From the NCBI RefSeq assembly GCF_003591005.1, contig NZ_QYYD01000009.1:1-64000 (forward strand): DNA of 64,000 bases, read 5' to 3'. Positions within the stretch are counted from its first letter, which is position 1. Each line of letters begins with the position of its first letter. The position numbers and the translations under genes were made by a program. This document shows positions 3,142-63,424 of this stretch, in pieces. The DNA comes from Rhodopseudomonas palustris. Lineage in GTDB: Bacteria > Pseudomonadota > Alphaproteobacteria > Rhizobiales > Xanthobacteraceae. Under the pieces are notes generated by a model. It did no database searches, was not told the origin of the DNA, and worked only from the letters and a program-made list of their open reading frames with translations.

Positions 3142-4827
3142 CTACCCCGCCGCCTTGATCAGCCGGTCCGCCGCGGCTCGCGCTTCGGCCGTGATTTCCG
3201 CGCCGGCCAGCATCCGCGCGATTTCCTCGCGGCGGTGGTCCTGTTCCAGCGCGGCGACGCGGGTGGCGACGCGTTTGCCTTTGTCGAGGGCGGCTTTGGA
3301 GATCAGCAAGTGTTGGTCGGCGCGGGCGGCGACTTGTGGCGCGTGGGTGACGGCCATCACCTGCACCTTCGACGCCAGCCGCGCCAGGCGACCGCCGATC
3401 GCATCCGCGACGGCACCGCCGACGCCGGTGTCGATTTCGTCGAACACCAGGGTCGGCGCCGAGCCCTTGTCTGACAGCACCACCTTGAGCGCCAGCAGGA
3501 AGCGCGACAGCTCGCCGCCGGAGGCGACTTTCATCATCGGGCCCGGCCTGGTGCCCGGATTGGTCTGCACCCAGAACTCGACGCGGTCGATGCCCTGCGG
3601 CCCCGCCGCAGCCGCATCGGCCTCGACCTGGGTCATGAACTTGGCGCGCTCCAGCTTCAGCGGCGCCAGCTCGCCATTGACCGCCTTGTTGAGCTTCTCG
3701 GCGGCTTTGCTGCGGGCAGCGGAGAGCTTGGCGGCGGCGGCGCTGTAGCGGCCGTCCGCTTCGCCGGCGGCTTTCTCCAGCACGACCAGCCGGTCAGCGC
3801 CGGCGTCGATCAGCGCGACATCGGCGGCGTATTGCGCCGCCAGCGCCGCGAGCCCGTCGACCGGCGTCGAATATTTGCGCGCCGCGGCGCGCAGCGCGAA
3901 CAGCCGCTCCTCGATCCGCTCCAGTTCGAGCGGGTCGAAATCGGCGGCGGCGAGCGCGGCGTTGAGGTGCTGATCGGCCTCTTCCAGTGCGTTGAGCGCG
4001 GTGTCGATCGCCCGCACGGCCGGCTCGATCAGCTGCGGCGCGGCGCCGGCGCGGCGTTCCAGCCGGCGCACCGCGGAGGCCAACGCGGCGACGGGCGAAT
4101 GCCGGCCGCCGACCACCTCCTGCGCCTCGCGCAGGTCCGCGGCGATCTTCTCGCCCTGCATCATCGTGCTGCGGCGCTCGGCCAGCGAGGTCTCCTCGCC
4201 ATCCTTGGGCGCGAGCTGCTTCAGTTCGTCGGAGGCGTGGCGCAGATAGTCGGCCTCGCGCGCCGCGCGCGCCATGCCGGCGCGGTGCTCGTCGAGCGCG
4301 GCGCGTGCACTACGGCGGCCTTCCCACAGCGCTTCCAGCGCCGCGACGTCCTTCTCCAGTCCGGCGAAGGCGTCGAGCAGCCGCCGATGGGTGGCGGCGT
4401 CGACCAGAGCGCGTTCGTCGTGCTGGCCGTGGATCTCGACCAGCGCCGCGCCGATCGTCTTCAGGGTCTGCACGCTGACCGACTGGTCGTTGATGAAGGC
4501 GCGGGTGCGGCCGTCGGCGAGTTGGACGCGGCGCAGGATCATCTCGCCGGCGTCTTCCTCGTCGCGATCATCGAGACCGTTGGCGGCCAGGATCGCAAAG
4601 GCCGGGTGGCCCTTGGCGAGATCGAAGGTGGCGGTGACCTGGCCGTGCTCGGCGCCATGGCGGACCAGCGCGGCATCGCCGCGGCCGCCGAGCGCCAGCG
4701 CAAACGCATCGAGCAAAATCGACTTGCCCGCGCCGGTCTCGCCGGTCAGCACCGCAAGGCCGCGGGAAAATTCGATGTCGAGCCGCTCGATCAACACGAT
4801 ATCGCGGATCGACAGGCGGGCGAGCAT
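3142..4827 (-). CDS. recN: DNA repair protein RecN
   Basis: SMC-like ATPase that acts on double-strand breaks in recombinational repair. The 561-residue product has the usual RecN length. Walker A is GETGAGKS (29-36), a long central coiled-coil region rich in Ala, Glu and Arg follows, and near the C-terminus are the Walker B segment [13 protein letters not shown] and the histidine switch of [10 protein letters not shown]. The start [12 protein letters not shown] matches the conserved N-terminus, so no extension is needed. It begins 12 bases after the bamD stop codon on the same strand, so the two are probably co-transcribed. Downstream are family A repeats. Confidence 0.97.
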
Positions 4828-6170: not shown

Positions 6171-7133
6171 TCAGGACATGTCCGGCCCGTAGGCCGGCGC
6201 GATCATGCCGCCGACCAGACCGGTGACGGCTTCGGCTGCGCCACGGACGGCGCGGCGGGCCGGCTCGGCTTCGATCACCCGGAAGTTGGTGCGATCGGCC
6301 AGCAGCGCGGTCAGCACTGCATGGTTCAGCTTGTGGCCACCGCGGACCGAGCGATAGGCGCCCATGATCGGCAGGCCGGCCAGCGCCAGATCGCCGATCG
6401 CGTCGAGCAGCTTATGGCGGGCGCATTCGTCGGCATAGCGCAGGCCTTCGGCATTCAGCAGGCGCTCGTCGTCGAACACCACCGAATTCTCGAACGAGGC
6501 GCCGCGGGCGTAGCCCATCTCCCACAGCCGGGCGACATCGCTCATGCAGCCGAAGGTGCGGGCGCGGGCGACTTCGCGGCGGAACGCTTCCGGCTCGACG
6601 CCGAGCGTGTAGCTCTGCTGACCGATCACCGGATTGGCGAAGTCGATCTCGACCTCGACGCGGAAACCGGCGGCATGCGGCCGCAGCTCGCCAACCGATT
6701 GGCCGTGCGCAACGCGCACCGGCTTGAGAACCTGAATATAGCGGCGCGGCGCGGACTGTTCGCGGATACCGGCCTGGTCGATGGCGGCGACGAACGGGGC
6801 GGCGCTGCCGTCCATGATCGGCACTTCGGCGCCGTCGACTTCGATGGTCGCGTTGTCGACACCCATGCCGCGCAATGCAGCCAGAACGTGTTCGGCGGTG
6901 GAGACCAGCGGGCCGTTGCTGTCGCCCAGCACGGTGGCAAGCTCGGTGGCCACCACCGATTTGGCATTCGCCTTGATCTCGCGGTCGGCGCCGTCGAGGC
7001 CGGTGCGGACAAAAATATAACCCGCATCGATGGATGCGGGCCCAATGGTAAGGTTGACCGGAAGGCCAGAATGGACGCCTACGCCCGTCACCGTGGCTTG
7101 CGAACGCAGCGTCGTCTGCCGGCTGAATTTCAT
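6171..7133 (-). CDS. lpxC: UDP-3-O-acyl-N-acetylglucosamine deacetylase LpxC
   Basis: Zinc hydrolase that removes the acetyl group from UDP-3-O-acyl-GlcNAc, the committed step of lipid A synthesis in the cytoplasm. The product is 320 residues. Family motifs are present: the first zinc histidine in STAEHVLAAL (His82), the second zinc site HKLLDAIGD, and the catalytic histidine region GGHKLNH. The start MKFSRQTTLRSQ is the conserved N-terminus; 37 upstream in-frame codons are not conserved. It lies downstream of ftsZ but beyond an intrinsic terminator, so it probably has its own promoter in 7134-7432. Confidence 0.98.
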   Translation of the reverse strand: MKFSRQTTLRSQATVTGVGVHSGLPVNLTIGPASIDAGYIFVRTGLDGADREIKANAKSVVATELATVLGDSNGPLVSTAEHVLAALRGMGVDNATIEVDGAEVPIMDGSAAPFVAAIDQAGIREQSAPRRYIQVLKPVRVAHGQSVGELRPHAAGFRVEVEIDFANPVIGQQSYTLGVEPEAFRREVARARTFGCMSDVARLWEMGYARGASFENSVVFDDERLLNAEGLRYADECARHKLLDAIGDLALAGLPIMGAYRSVRGGHKLNHAVLTALLADRTNFRVIEAEPARRAVRGAAEAVTGLVGGMIAPAYGPDMS

Positions 7134-7432
7134 GCGTGAACTGCCCACCAATGACCACCTGTCAGTCAGCACCGGACGGCTTTCTGATCTTGTTTCAAGA
7201 TCTTGTCCGGGCGACTCGATGTGTCCCCAAGTCCCGAAAACCATAGCACTGCCCCAAAGAGCGCCAACTCACGCTTTTTTACGGATTGTTACCCCAACTC
7301 CGCCGTATTACCGCCGCCGCGGTCCAGAACTCAGACGCAATGATGGCAGAAGGTGATCCCTACCGGCCTGCTACGATCTCGAAATACCCTTTAAAATCAA
7401 TTACCTAAAAACGTCCGACGGGTTTGCAGCGC

Positions 7433-7468
7433 ACAACAAAATGGCCCCGGAGGTGTTCCTCCGGGGCC
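7433..7468 (-). terminator. Intrinsic terminator after ftsZ
   Basis: Perfect 11-bp GC-rich stem (GGCCCCGGAGG with CCTCCGGGGCC) around a 4-base loop, followed on the minus strand by ATTTTGTTG. It lies 28 bases past the ftsZ stop codon and should separate ftsZ from lpxC transcription. The remaining 7134-7432 stretch holds no gene and is presumably the lpxC promoter and leader. Confidence 0.9.
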
Positions 7469-7496
7469 CTGTAACAGTCCGAAATGTGGCAGGCGA

Positions 7497-9269
7497 TCAC
7501 GTCGCCTGGCGGCGCAGGAACGCCGGGATATCGAGATGGTCGTCACCCTGTGGCGCTTGCGCAACAGGCGCTGGACGGCCGTGGATATCGAGGCCCTGCG
7601 GGCGCTTGGCATATTCCGACACCGGATCATGGCCCATCTGCTCGGCGACGCTGCGCTGCGGCCGACGCTCCGGCAGCGGCGGCATCTGCGGCACCGCCGG
7701 CGCAGCGGCGACCCGCACCGGCGCGGCCGGCTCGGCTTCGTCGTCGCGGCGGCTGAGGCCGTTGGCCAGCCGCTGCAGCAGCGACAGCCGGGTCTTCTGC
7801 GGCTCGTCGTCGGTCTCGCCGCGGGCGGCCTGACGGATCTCGTTCTGGGCCGGCACCGGCAGTTCGTCGAACCGCGGCATCCGCGGCGCGCGCAGAGCGG
7901 CGCGGTCGGGCTGCTGCGGAATGAACGAATCCGGGGTCTCCGGCTCTTCCGACACCGCGCGAGTCTGCTCCATGTCGGGGAACAGCGACGGCTTCTGCGG
8001 GATCGGGCGAACCGTGACGTCGCCATAGGCGGCCGGCTGCACCGGGGCCTGCGCGACCTGCGGGGCCGGCATCTGCTCGGTGCTGACCGCGGCGGCGATC
8101 GCCGCCAGCGCGGCGCGCTCGACGTTCGGGTTGCGGGCCACCGGAGCCGGCGCGACCGGAGCCTGCGCCGCGCGGGCGGCGGCGGCTTCGGCGATGCGCT
8201 GGTTGTCGGCGCGAAGCTTGGCAGTCAGTTCAGCCAGACGGCTGTCCGCCGGCGCAGCAGCCTGGGCAGCCGCGCCGGCCGCGGCTGCGTTCCGCGACAA
8301 CTGATCCTTCTCAATGCCGGTCGCCACGACCGACACGCGGATGATGCCATCGAGGCTCTCGTCGAAGGTGGCGCCGACGATGATGTTGGCGTCCTGGTCG
8401 ACTTCCTCGCGGATGCGGGTGGCGGCTTCGTCGACTTCGAACAGCGTCAGGTCCTTGCCGCCGGTGATCGAGATCAGCAGGCCGCGGGCACCCTTCATCG
8501 AGGAGTCGTCGATCAGCGGGTTGGCGATCGCGGCTTCGGCGGCGGTCAGCGCGCGCTTCTCGCCGGAGGCTTCGCCGGTACCCATCATCGCCTTGCCCAT
8601 CTCGCGCATCACGGCGCGGACGTCGGCGAAGTCGAGGTTGATCAGGCCTTCCTTGACCATCAGGTCGGTGATGCAGGCGACGCCGGAATACAGCACCTGG
8701 TCGGCCATCGCGAAGGCGTCGGCGAAGGTGGTCTTCTCATTGGCGACCCGGAACAGATTCTGATTCGGGATGATCAGCAGCGTGTCGACGACTTTGTGCA
8801 ACTCGGTGATGCCGGACTCCGCGGTCCGCATCCGGCGTGCGCCTTCGAAGTGGAACGGCTTGGTCACCACGCCGACGGTCAGGATGCCCATCTCGCGTGC
8901 GGCCTTGGCGATCACCGGCGCGGCGCCGGTGCCGGTGCCGCCGCCCATGCCGGCGGTGACGAACACCATGTTGGCGCCGGTGAGGTGATCGCGAATCTCA
9001 TCAATGACTTCCTGCGCTGCAGCGGAGCCGACGTCGGGCTGCGAGCCGGCGCCGAGGCCCTGGGTCACCTGGGTGCCCATCTGGATCAGCCGCTGCGCCT
9101 TCGACATCGTCAGCGCTTGCGCGTCGGTGTTGGCGACCACGAAATCAACGCCGTCGAGGCCGGCGGTGATCATGTTGTTGACCGCATTGCCGCCGGCGCC
9201 GCCGACGCCGAACACGGTGATGCGGGGCCGCAGCTCGCGAATGTCAGGAACGTTGAGATTGATGGTCAT
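7497..9269 (-). CDS. ftsZ: Cell division GTPase FtsZ
   Basis: Tubulin-like GTPase that forms the Z-ring at mid-cell. The 590-residue product has the GTP-binding loop GGGTGTG (109-115), the T7 loop region and a conserved core to about residue 320. A long Ala/Pro-rich disordered linker of about 250 residues follows, ending in the FtsA-binding peptide [13 protein letters not shown]. Long linkers are usual in alphaproteobacteria. The start [10 protein letters not shown] has a GAGAGG ribosome-binding site; 20 upstream in-frame codons are excluded. It follows ftsA by 93 bases and is closed by a strong terminator. Confidence 0.99.
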
Positions 9270-57543: not shown

Positions 57544-60242
<2,699 letters not shown>

Positions 60243-60265
60243 GGGCAGGCTCTCCCCAAGCACAA

Positions 60266-60296
60266 CGTCATGCCCGGGCTTGACCCGGGTTTGACG
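60266..60296. repeat. Short family B-like element, copy B11
   Basis: CGTCATGCCCGGGCTTGACCCGGGTTTGACGG: GTCAT foot plus a CCCGGG/CCCGGG hairpin, lacking the CCACGCC tail. It lies 24 bases past thiC; its stem plus TTTG might slow RNA polymerase. Confidence 0.65.
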
Positions 60297-60358
60297 GTGT
60301 ATTGAAATTGGGTGCGCTTTTTAGCGATTCTCGAAGCTGCTATTATTTTGGCAATCAA

Positions 60359-61408
60359 ATGAGCATGGATCTTGGAACAGTTGCCGGGCTGCTGGGCGTC
60401 GCCTTAACAGTAATATTTTTCGTGATTGGTTACAGGCAAACAATTGGCGCGCGAAAAGAGAGGGCAGCAGCAACAAACCGCGACATTGCAGATACACTAC
60501 TTCGCCGCCTAACGCTCGAATCTACATTTCAGATCACCTACCACGACATCGATCGATTTGCCGCCGGCAAGACGCTTGAAAACCGAGTAAAGCGATCTGA
60601 CTCACTCTCAGTTGAAGAGCTCTTAGTGCTTCTTTACTCTCGTGTGGTCAGCAGCGACTACATCGGCACTGATCAAAGGCAGCAATTGCTGGACAAGATC
60701 AATAAGTGCTTCAAATCGGAGAGCCAGGACGAAGGGCGACTGAATAGGATTGAATTGGTTTCCGAAAGGGCGACCTCCGATGGAGCAGCCTCACAGATGG
60801 CCACTGACGTCAAGGGGCGCGATGAAAAACAGTTCATTCTTCTCGGGCTCATCTCAAGTCTTCTCGCAGGCATATCGACCGTGCTCGCGACTGGAATATT
60901 CGAGAGTACTTTAGATGGCCGGATAACGTCACCCCGCATTTTAATAATCGGGGGAGCGCTAATCCTAGTTACTTCTGCAGCTCTAGTTCTTGTTTATTGG
61001 TTGCGAGAGAGGTCTGCAGCAACACGCCAAATTGAGCCGGTACGTAACTTTGCACTCAAAGCTCAAGATTTCGAGCGCCGGTTCGTGCGGGCAATACGCG
61101 CATCAGGCATGGTCGCAACAGTCTCAAATGATTCGGCGGTCGATCTCGTCCTTTCATGCGGTGACAAGAAGTTCGCAATCGAACTAAAACTGTTTCCGCC
61201 CAACGTCCGAACGACCGCTGCCATTATAAAGCGAATGTCGGATGCCCTTCCTCGGTTGGGATGCGAGATGGGCTATCTTGTGGTCGCAACGGCAGTTCCC
61301 GAAGTCATCAAAGAAGCCGGCACTGAGAAGATCATCGTTGTAAATGACGAAGAATTCTTCAGTAAGTTTGGCAATCAAAATGGAAAGCCCGTAGCCCGTA
61401 GCCCGTAG
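60359..61408 (+). CDS. Membrane-anchored PD-(D/E)XK nuclease-like protein
   Basis: I do not recognise a named family. The 349-residue product has one N-terminal membrane helix (about 4-25), a soluble helical segment, two more helices (about 159-181 and 194-215), and a C-terminal restriction-endonuclease-like domain (about 240-340). The domain shows a PD-(D/E)XK signature AVDLVLSCGDKKFAIELK: Asp262, then 12 residues, Glu275 and Lys277, followed by an alternating strand/helix pattern (MGYLVVATAVP). The bases are clearly AT-richer than flanking genes, with many ATT/AAA-type codons, suggesting recent transfer. The start is uncertain (ATG 60359 or 60365; a TTG at 60302 is possible). Its last codons and stop come from the adjacent repeat. 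Confidence 0.72.
   Translation: MSMDLGTVAGLLGVALTVIFFVIGYRQTIGARKERAAATNRDIADTLLRRLTLESTFQITYHDIDRFAAGKTLENRVKRSDSLSVEELLVLLYSRVVSSDYIGTDQRQQLLDKINKCFKSESQDEGRLNRIELVSERATSDGAASQMATDVKGRDEKQFILLGLISSLLAGISTVLATGIFESTLDGRITSPRILIIGGALILVTSAALVLVYWLRERSAATRQIEPVRNFALKAQDFERRFVRAIRASGMVATVSNDSAVDLVLSCGDKKFAIELKLFPPNVRTTAAIIKRMSDALPRLGCEMGYLVVATAVPEVIKEAGTEKIIVVNDEEFFSKFGNQNGKPVARSP
61388..61408. repeat. Triple tandem of a 7-base REP-foot unit
   Basis: CCCGTAG occurs three times in a row (61388-61394, 61395-61401, 61402-61408), merging into REP D1. It encodes the last residues and stop codon of the nuclease-like gene. Confidence 0.85.
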
Positions 61409-61487
61409 GGCGGATTAGCGAAGCGTAATCCGCCGCTGCCGCGAACGCCGCTCGGCGGGTTACGCCTTTGGCTAACCCGCCCTACGG
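61404..61487. repeat. REP pair (BIME-like), family D copy D1
   Basis: Left REP: GTAG foot then hairpin GGCGGATTA-GCGAAGCG-TAATCCGCC. Right REP: inverted, GGCGGGTTACGCC...GGCTAACCCGCC then CTAC. The GTAG foot with an adjoining hairpin is the canonical REP signature recognised by RAYT enzymes. Confidence 0.93.
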
Positions 61488-61497
61488 TCGAGCGTCG

Positions 61498-62028
61498 CTA
61501 CGCCTCACCGAACTCTCCTTCGACACCGGCATCGCCCGTCCAGTCGATCGGAAACACGCCGCGACAGACGTCGCGGTGAAACGACGAATACGGCCAGTCC
61601 TGCACCAGACTGACCAGTCCATGCTTCACTGGATTGATCATGCAATACTCGACGTGGCGCGCGTAGTCGTCCTCGTCTCGGATCAGATGCTCCCAGAACC
61701 GGCGCTGCCAGATGCCCCGCTCGCGGCGCCTTGCGCGAACGACGCTCAGTCGTTCTTGCTTTGGTAGCCCCTTGGCGAAATGCGTCTTGATCAGCCGCCA
61801 GCGGGTGGAAAAATCGGCATCCTCGGGCGGCAAGGTCCAGACGGCGTGAAGATGGTCAGGAAGTACCACAACGGCATCGATCTCGAATGGAAGCCGCTGC
61901 CGCGTGCGCGCGACTGCGTCGCGCAGGATCGCGATGTGATCGACCAGTAGGGTATTTCGGCGTTCGAGCAGATTGACGGTGAAGAACCAGCATCCACCCG
62001 GCACAAAGGCGCGACGGTAGTTTGGCAT
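61498..62028 (-). mobile_element. REP-associated tyrosine transposase (RAYT, Y1 HUH family)
   Basis: Product of 176 residues, TnpREP/RAYT type. It has the HUH metal motif in VLPDHLHAVWTLP and the nucleophilic tyrosine in VEYCMINPVKHGLV; the ends MPNYRRAFVPGGCWFFTVNL and VQDWPYSSFHRDV are also typical. These enzymes nick single-stranded REP hairpins and are thought to spread them without moving themselves. The gene is flanked by GTAG-type REPs on both sides (D1 and D2). It appears intact, so it may be active on family D. No ribosome-binding site is visible. Confidence 0.95.
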
Positions 62029-62789: not shown

Positions 62790-63254
62790 CTACCCATCTC
62801 GCGGCTGCTTCATGTTGCGCAGGATCATCTCTACGATCGCCGGTCCGTTCTGCTCCATGTCGCGCGCGACTTCGCGGGCTCGGGCCGGTGAGATGAGGCG
62901 CCCCTCTTCGCCATCGAAGATCACGCCGGAGGTCGCTTCGGCGTAGGCCGCGGCGGCCAGATAGGCGCTGGCGCCGGCGTCGAAATCGGCGCCCCAGCGA
63001 AACGCCAACGCGTGCCGCCACGGACGATCGAACGCGATCTCGGTGAGCTCCGCCATCAGCTTCGCAGCGTCCCACTGATCGCATTCGAACGCGGTCGGGC
63101 GATCGCGCAGCTTCACCGGCAACGCACCTCCGATTTCTGCGAATGGCCGCCCGGTCGACAATTGCAGCGGGCTCCCGGCTGCATCGATCGCCTGTTGCCA
63201 GGCCGCGATGGTGTCGAGCCGTTGGTCCGCGAGTACGAATATTTCTAACGACAT
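62790..63254 (-). CDS. Hypothetical protein
   Basis: Product of 154 residues (MSLEIFVLADQRLDTIAAWQ...), soluble, mixed alpha/beta, with DRPTAFECDQWDAAKLMAEL and a C-terminal helix rich in Arg/Glu. I do not recognise a family. A convincing AAGGA ribosome-binding site lies eight bases before the ATG, and codon use matches the genome, so it is probably real. Forty-two further open codons upstream are excluded. Confidence 0.75.
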   Translation of the reverse strand: MSLEIFVLADQRLDTIAAWQQAIDAAGSPLQLSTGRPFAEIGGALPVKLRDRPTAFECDQWDAAKLMAELTEIAFDRPWRHALAFRWGADFDAGASAYLAAAAYAEATSGVIFDGEEGRLISPARAREVARDMEQNGPAIVEMILRNMKQPRDG

Positions 63255-63349
63255 GAAAAATTCCTTCAAGAAACAAGAACGGCAATAGGTAATCGGTGAG
63301 GCTTGTAACGACGCGAAAAATAAACGCATCGCCATAGAGAGCGAACTCG

Positions 63350-63424
63350 CGAAGCGTAGGCCGCCATCCGGCACATGCAACCGCCAAAACGGCCGGGCGA
63401 GTTACGCCTTCGGCTAACCCGCCG
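63350..63424. repeat. Degenerate REP pair, family D copy D4
   Basis: Left part GCGAAGCGTAGGCCGCC is decayed; the right part GGGCGAGTTACGCCTTCGGC with TAACCCGCC retains the hairpin. The gene-free stretch 63255-63547 holds this and nothing else I can support. Confidence 0.7.

Follow-up and report, generated by a model that had tools for sequence, protein, structure and literature searches.

A predicted membrane-anchored PD-(D/E)XK nuclease-like protein encoded downstream of thiC in Rhodopseudomonas palustris, a candidate single-gene defence at the site of DNA entry

Introduction

Shedu, Kiwa and Zorya are DNA-targeting defences, and the Shedu protein SduA is a single-gene PD-(D/E)XK nuclease. 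The multi-gene systems Kiwa and Zorya operate from the inner membrane (PMC12904381). In SNIPE (PD-lambda-1), a nuclease held at the inner membrane cuts DNA during its injection, which constitutes a direct defence without cell death (PMC13190303). SNIPE is encoded by a single gene found on mobile DNA and combines an N-terminal membrane part with one transmembrane (TM) helix, a middle cytosolic domain (DUF4041) and a C-terminal GIY-YIG nuclease, the latter being its most conserved region.

Here we describe a gene of R. palustris located in a stretch of 64,000 nucleotides, the whole of which is referred to as the window (Table 1). The predicted product resembles SNIPE in its single-gene format, the order of its parts and its family's association with mobile DNA. 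However, it has three predicted TM helices, an unnamed helical domain and a PD-(D/E)XK domain, and the membrane-proximal segment rather than the nuclease is best conserved in its family. Pfam detected DUF4041 and GIY-YIG neither in the window protein nor in a tally of the nine family members, and hence the protein is not SNIPE. As a putative DNA-targeting defence it also resembles Shedu, Kiwa and Zorya, but differs from the latter two in being encoded by one gene. No match was obtained with the Pfam and PADLOC models for these three systems, and the SduA core (DUF4263) was not matched by Pfam or PADLOC in either the window protein or its family. With PADLOC-DB 2.0.0 the window protein had no profile match, and the best value within the family, 0.0013 to pPIWI_RE_REase for one member, reflects a weak and generic nuclease similarity. 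The family is unnamed; it most likely works in the manner of SNIPE while being built from different domains.

Table 1. Features of the thiC-RAYT region, in window positions
Feature	Position	Strand	Basis
thiC, conserved left border of the hotspot	58302..60242	+	Pfam ThiC, 9.4e-185
REP-like repeat GTCATGCCCGGGCTTGACCCGGG, left edge of the insert	60267..60289	+	same-genus homology stops at 60289
Gene encoding the nuclease-like, predicted membrane-anchored protein (349 aa)	60359..61408	+	ORF and whole-protein homologues
Predicted TM helix 1 (TM1), residues about 5-26	60371..60436	+	hydropathy; helix 5-53 in the model
GYRQTIGARKER signature directly after TM1, best conserved stretch of the family	60428..60463	+	alignment; segment conservation 0.68
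Predicted all-helical domain in the cytosol, residues about 36-125	60464..60733	+	model, pLDDT about 80
Predicted TM helix 2 (TM2), residues about 157-180	60827..60898	+	model and hydropathy
Predicted TM helix 3 (TM3), residues about 194-216	60938..61006	+	model and hydropathy
Predicted PD-(D/E)XK (Mrr/Hjc-like) nuclease domain, residues 237-340	61067..61378	+	domain model; Foldseek; hhalign
E239 codon (glutamate of helix alpha-A; invariant where the site is intact)	61073..61075	+	
D262 codon, invariant in all nine members	61142..61144	+	
E275-L276-K277 codons (E-x-K)	61181..61189	+	
Right-hand inverted repeat GTAGGGCGGATTAGC...GCTAACCCGCCCTAC; relatives are homologous again from about 61400	61405..61485	+	
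REP-associated tyrosine transposase (RAYT), neighbour in most members of the genus	61498..62028	-	NF047646, 5.6e-59

A rare family with a conserved membrane module

Eight whole-protein homologues (L005-L012) were found, giving a family of nine. Searches of genome contigs with the window sequence singly returned no relative. A weak plasmid match led to the Pandoraea plasmid pPF72-1 (L005), whose copy (L005:2459-3489) is broken up by two lesions, a frameshift and an in-frame stop, and shows full-length homology at E 1e-24 when its pieces are read together; its N-terminal part was checked on the separate pieces. Only the C-terminal part of this plasmid copy is annotated, as a restriction endonuclease. 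The two-sequence profile made from the window protein and L005 then identified five relatives in genome contigs, namely from Hydrogenophaga (L006), Zeimonas arvi (L007), a Nitrospirae MAG (L008), Silicimonas (L009) and Thermoleophilaceae (L010), as well as two in proviral contigs (L011 and L012). Plasmid pPF72-1 is the sole plasmid on which a relative was found, and phage records contained no relative of the three queries used.

The family is very rare. Beyond the query genomes, no full-length member was detected among 297 genomes of the same family, 385 of the same class and 398 of the same phylum as the window genome, nor among 399 of the order of Z. arvi and 369 of the class of the Hydrogenophaga member; these roughly 1,850 genomes represent samples or pattern-limited scans, and the family is known from nine sequences. 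The remaining genome matches are Mrr-type nucleases, which match in the C-terminal domain only, or a few weak partial matches. Several candidates were rejected: L002 matches residues 64-136 alone and its ORFs resemble other genes, the weak family-search matches L003 and L004 contain stops, and L070, retrieved by a scan with the pattern GYRQTIGA, is a chance match.

All members share TM1, YRQTIGARKER-like residues, the helical domain, the TM2/TM3 region and the nuclease domain, with TM2 falling under the hydropathy threshold in the Thermoleophilaceae protein and in L011. In the window protein, hydropathy supports the three membrane helices proposed by the initial annotation and predicts that they start near residues 5, 159 and 194. 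Conservation is highest just after TM1 and drops to 0.45 in the nuclease domain. The GYRQTIGARKER segment is positively charged and hence probably cytosolic, and by the positive-inside rule residues 27-155 and the C-terminal domain would both lie in the cytosol. Together with the three hydrophobic helices, this suggests an inner-membrane anchor with a cytosolic nuclease. The AlphaFold model of the full-length protein, based on an alignment of eight sequences from which the Pandoraea plasmid row was left out, shows a confident helical N-terminal half and a confident C-terminal domain, and the helical domain is retained in the alignment by all members whose sequence spans that region.

Mrr-type nucleases with two N-terminal membrane helices (L013, L038, L039, L040 and L044) are recurrent in Pseudomonadota and represent another, commoner membrane-nuclease architecture. 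The Mrr_cat (PF04471) proteins belong to the same nuclease domain superfamily as the window protein. However, the Mrr-type proteins found here lack the N-terminal module consisting of TM1, the GYRQTIGARKER segment and the helical domain, and mostly have QxK where the window family has ExK.

The predicted C-terminal nuclease domain

The window protein alone has no family match in Pfam, PADLOC or PHROGs, and a direct sequence search of the PDB returned nothing meaningful for it. The evidence for its C-terminal fold comes from structural models and from relatives. Modelled alone with AlphaFold, the domain reaches a pLDDT of 81.7 and a pTM of 0.75 and has the order alpha-beta-beta-beta-alpha-beta. 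In a Foldseek search of the PDB with this model, archaeal Hjc ranked first (TM 0.57/0.64), followed by Ecl18kI, Bax1, AF1548, Can2, DdmD and Avs4, while the full-length model retrieved EcoO109I, Can2, Hjc, Bax1 and Avs4. The E-values of these PDB matches lie between 1e-3 and 1e-2 (best 1.6e-3), and the leading ones belong nearly all to the PD-(D/E)XK superfamily; in the viral Foldseek library, matches named restriction endonuclease reach 1e-4. An hhalign comparison of the nuclease domain with the Mrr-type protein L013 gave 91.6%, compared with 0.1% for a control against the unrelated RAYT. For Mrr_cat, the window protein remains below the Pfam gathering cut-off, but three of the nine members match at E<=1 and the Pandoraea homologue scores 25.2 bits against a cut-off of 21. 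The domain model and Foldseek thus agree with the initial annotation in assigning the C-terminal domain, as predicted, to the PD-(D/E)XK fold, whose core is present in the model.

Hjc lacks a membrane part and is a small soluble dimer with a housekeeping role. While it is the best structural match, its sequence similarity is weak: a profile of the domain placed peroxiredoxin noise at the top of the PDB matches and recovered Hjc at just E 0.2. Hjc of P. furiosus has E9, D33, E46 and K48 in an E...D-x12-E-x-K layout, and these residues show the same spacing as E239, D262, E275 and K277 of the window protein except for the first gap.

The D-x12-E-x-K motif at residues 262-277 had been the starting point for the nuclease assignment. 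As 9% of shuffled copies of the window protein contain D-x12-[DE]-x-K, the bare motif was rejected as proof of a nuclease. Its significance derives from the homologues, one of which matches Mrr_cat, and from the predicted fold.

Genomic contexts of the relatives

A survey of gene neighbourhoods, proposed to look for defence islands, found one relative in an integron cassette, two in proviral contigs and one each on a conjugative plasmid and in a defence island. The Z. arvi gene has attC-type sites directly upstream (L007:780-908) and across its stop codon (L007:1918-1978), where 0.15 per strand would be expected by chance, and the presence of such sites on both sides identifies it as an integron cassette. 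By inspection, half of an attC-type signature was seen downstream of the Hydrogenophaga gene. No attC sites were found around the window gene, and hence the window copy is not recognisable as a cassette. In Silicimonas, the next gene encodes Avs2 (1.5e-185) and the other side is occupied by HmaC (2.5e-67) and an AAA_21 ATPase, a set of neighbours that marks a defence island. L011 belongs to a provirus and follows a phage Q antiterminator there. An Rz spanin is encoded close to L012, which sits at the edge of its proviral contig, and the large conjugative plasmid of Pandoraea has its copy next to ParAB and Rep. Both integron cassettes and the accessory loci of phages are known reservoirs of defence genes (PMC12409362; PMC9122126).

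Two further genes lie beside the Z. arvi member (L007:1997-3319 and 3461-4249), the first right after its attC site. Neither has a Pfam or PADLOC match, and they are possible further defence cassettes.

Proposed function

We hypothesize that the window gene encodes a single-protein anti-phage (or anti-plasmid) nuclease that is confined to the membrane, and assign this reading a probability of about 0.5. TM1, the GYRQTIGARKER segment and the cytosolic helical domain would anchor the protein in the inner membrane, and the same part may sense a partner, which could be the phage injection apparatus, a host import protein or a disturbance of the membrane. TM2 and TM3 would bring the chain back to the cytosol, where the Mrr/Hjc-type PD-(D/E)XK domain, with E239, D262, E275 and K277, would cut DNA entering at the membrane. 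Confinement to the membrane would spare the nucleoid, as for SNIPE. A SNIPE-like defence against DNA entry is favoured by the anatomy, the single-gene format and the mobile and defence contexts taken together. If it is correct, membrane confinement of a nuclease as a way of telling entering from resident DNA has more than one evolutionary origin, and the membrane modules and nuclease folds involved are unrelated. Since the membrane-proximal segment is the most conserved one, the family would also be suited to the question of what the protein senses where DNA enters.

A conserved membrane-proximal module and an Mrr-type nuclease without a modification partner are also what might be expected of an abortive-infection effector, in which the membrane and helical parts sense phage-induced membrane damage and the infected cell is then killed through degradation of host DNA by the nuclease. 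The provirus, integron and defence-island contexts fit this equally well. However, a membrane-tethered nuclease is poorly placed to reach the nucleoid, and SNIPE, which has the same layout, is a direct defence without cell death. We consider an abortive role unlikely, while noting that sequence cannot decide between the cutting of entering DNA and an abortive response, both of which the initial annotation had offered.

The homologue beside ParAB and Rep raises the question of whether the family forms a barrier against plasmids or other conjugative DNA, or against natural transformation, rather than against phage. For a large conjugative plasmid, a function akin to exclusion would be plausible, and the nuclease would sit at the surface where DNA enters. 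In contrast, the two proviral homologues and the one next to Avs2 point to phage, and the plasmid copy is itself broken by its frameshift and stop. A dedicated plasmid barrier thus appears improbable.

The variation of the active site among relatives bears on whether these proteins cut DNA at all. The presumed catalytic residues are intact in the window protein, yet they are not universal across the family. The site is intact in five of the nine members (the window protein, L005, L006, L007 and L011), and in a domain alignment of these five the sole invariant columns are E239, D262, I274, E275 and K277. The E-x-K element is degenerate in the other four, reading AVK in L008, LVK in L009, QTM in L010 and ETM in L012, and D262 is the only residue of the nuclease domain common to all nine. 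The Asp262-Glu275-Lys277 motif suggested earlier is therefore present in the window protein and kept in full by the five, while the concern that homologues might lack it proved justified for the four that have lost E275, K277 or both. This degeneration argues that cutting is not the sole selected role. One could go further and propose a DNA-binding, non-cutting membrane protein, in which the PD-(D/E)XK fold serves as a scaffold, any intact sites being incidental or ancestral, and which causes a block similar to that by Kiwa, whose KwaB binds without cleaving (PMC12904381). The fold and the membrane part are indeed retained where E or K has been lost. However, the residues invariant in the window protein and the other four site-intact members are precisely the catalytic ones, and a purely binding role seems just as improbable as a dedicated plasmid barrier.

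Returning to a membrane-confined defence against entering DNA, a version that covers the whole family can be put forward tentatively, and with less confidence than the proposal for the window protein. The nine proteins may constitute an unnamed one-gene family whose conserved membrane module of three helices, different from those of SNIPE, Kiwa and Zorya, guards the surface of DNA entry, with an Mrr/Hjc-type domain that would be catalytic in some members and is degenerate, and probably only grips DNA, in others.

An insertion hotspot downstream of thiC

The initial annotation had pictured a transferred gene of lower GC content between thiC and a RAYT, and this picture holds. Both neighbours were identified by profile match. 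The GC content of the ORF at 60359-61408 is 50.7%, compared with 66.3% for the window, and its GC3 is 0.52 versus 0.90 in thiC. Searches of 15 other same-genus genomes did not recover the gene; 14 of these genomes contain the end of thiC. Based on its composition, its absence from these genomes and its position in a hotspot of variable cargo, the gene is foreign and was acquired horizontally. Positions 7001-7500 are the sole other 500-bp stretch of the window with a GC content below 57%.

The slot following thiC (60243-61400; L047-L059) is AT-rich in all 13 genomes with enough sequence, with a lowest 400-bp GC of 43-54%. It is bounded by repeats, often with a RAYT beside it. Its cargo differs between these genomes and includes membrane proteins, hydrolase-like proteins, a DUF6602 protein, an AAA ATPase and IS elements; the DUF6602 protein and the AAA ATPase were assigned by Pfam, and most cargos tested had no Pfam assignment. 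Homologous cargo was seen in one pair among those compared (G067/G109, 76%). In six of 14 genomes (the window genome, G171, G157, G191, G067 and G216) the cargo ORF is closed inside the repeat AGCCCGTAGGGCGG and ends in RSP or LSP, and the location of its stop codon inside this repeat indicates that the cargo was joined right at the repeat. The thiC slot is thus a genus-wide hotspot of exchange next to a RAYT. It may supply new defence systems of the single-gene type, and it provides a set of additional single-gene candidates that are as yet uncharacterised.

A second ATG of the gene, at 60365, aligns better with the starts of the homologues. No clear ribosome-binding site and no sigma-70-type promoter above chance were found for the gene, and its stop codon is supplied by the right-hand repeat (61405-61408), suggesting that it may be poorly expressed or recently captured. 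These features, and the mostly unrelated cargo of the other genomes, would be compatible with a neutral or decaying passenger of the repeat-bounded hotspot with no present function, but such a passenger is hard to reconcile with 349 codons open without frameshift or stop and with intact catalytic residues, and we regard it as very improbable.

Further along the window, positions 62790-63380 (-) encode an unnamed 196-aa protein, for which no Pfam or NCBIfam match was found. A look-alike is encoded at 600-1109 of the L050 hotspot (MSMEVYVLSDQRL.. versus MSLEIFVLADQRL..), and further look-alikes occur nearby in the genus; they are perhaps an immunity- or antitoxin-like family.
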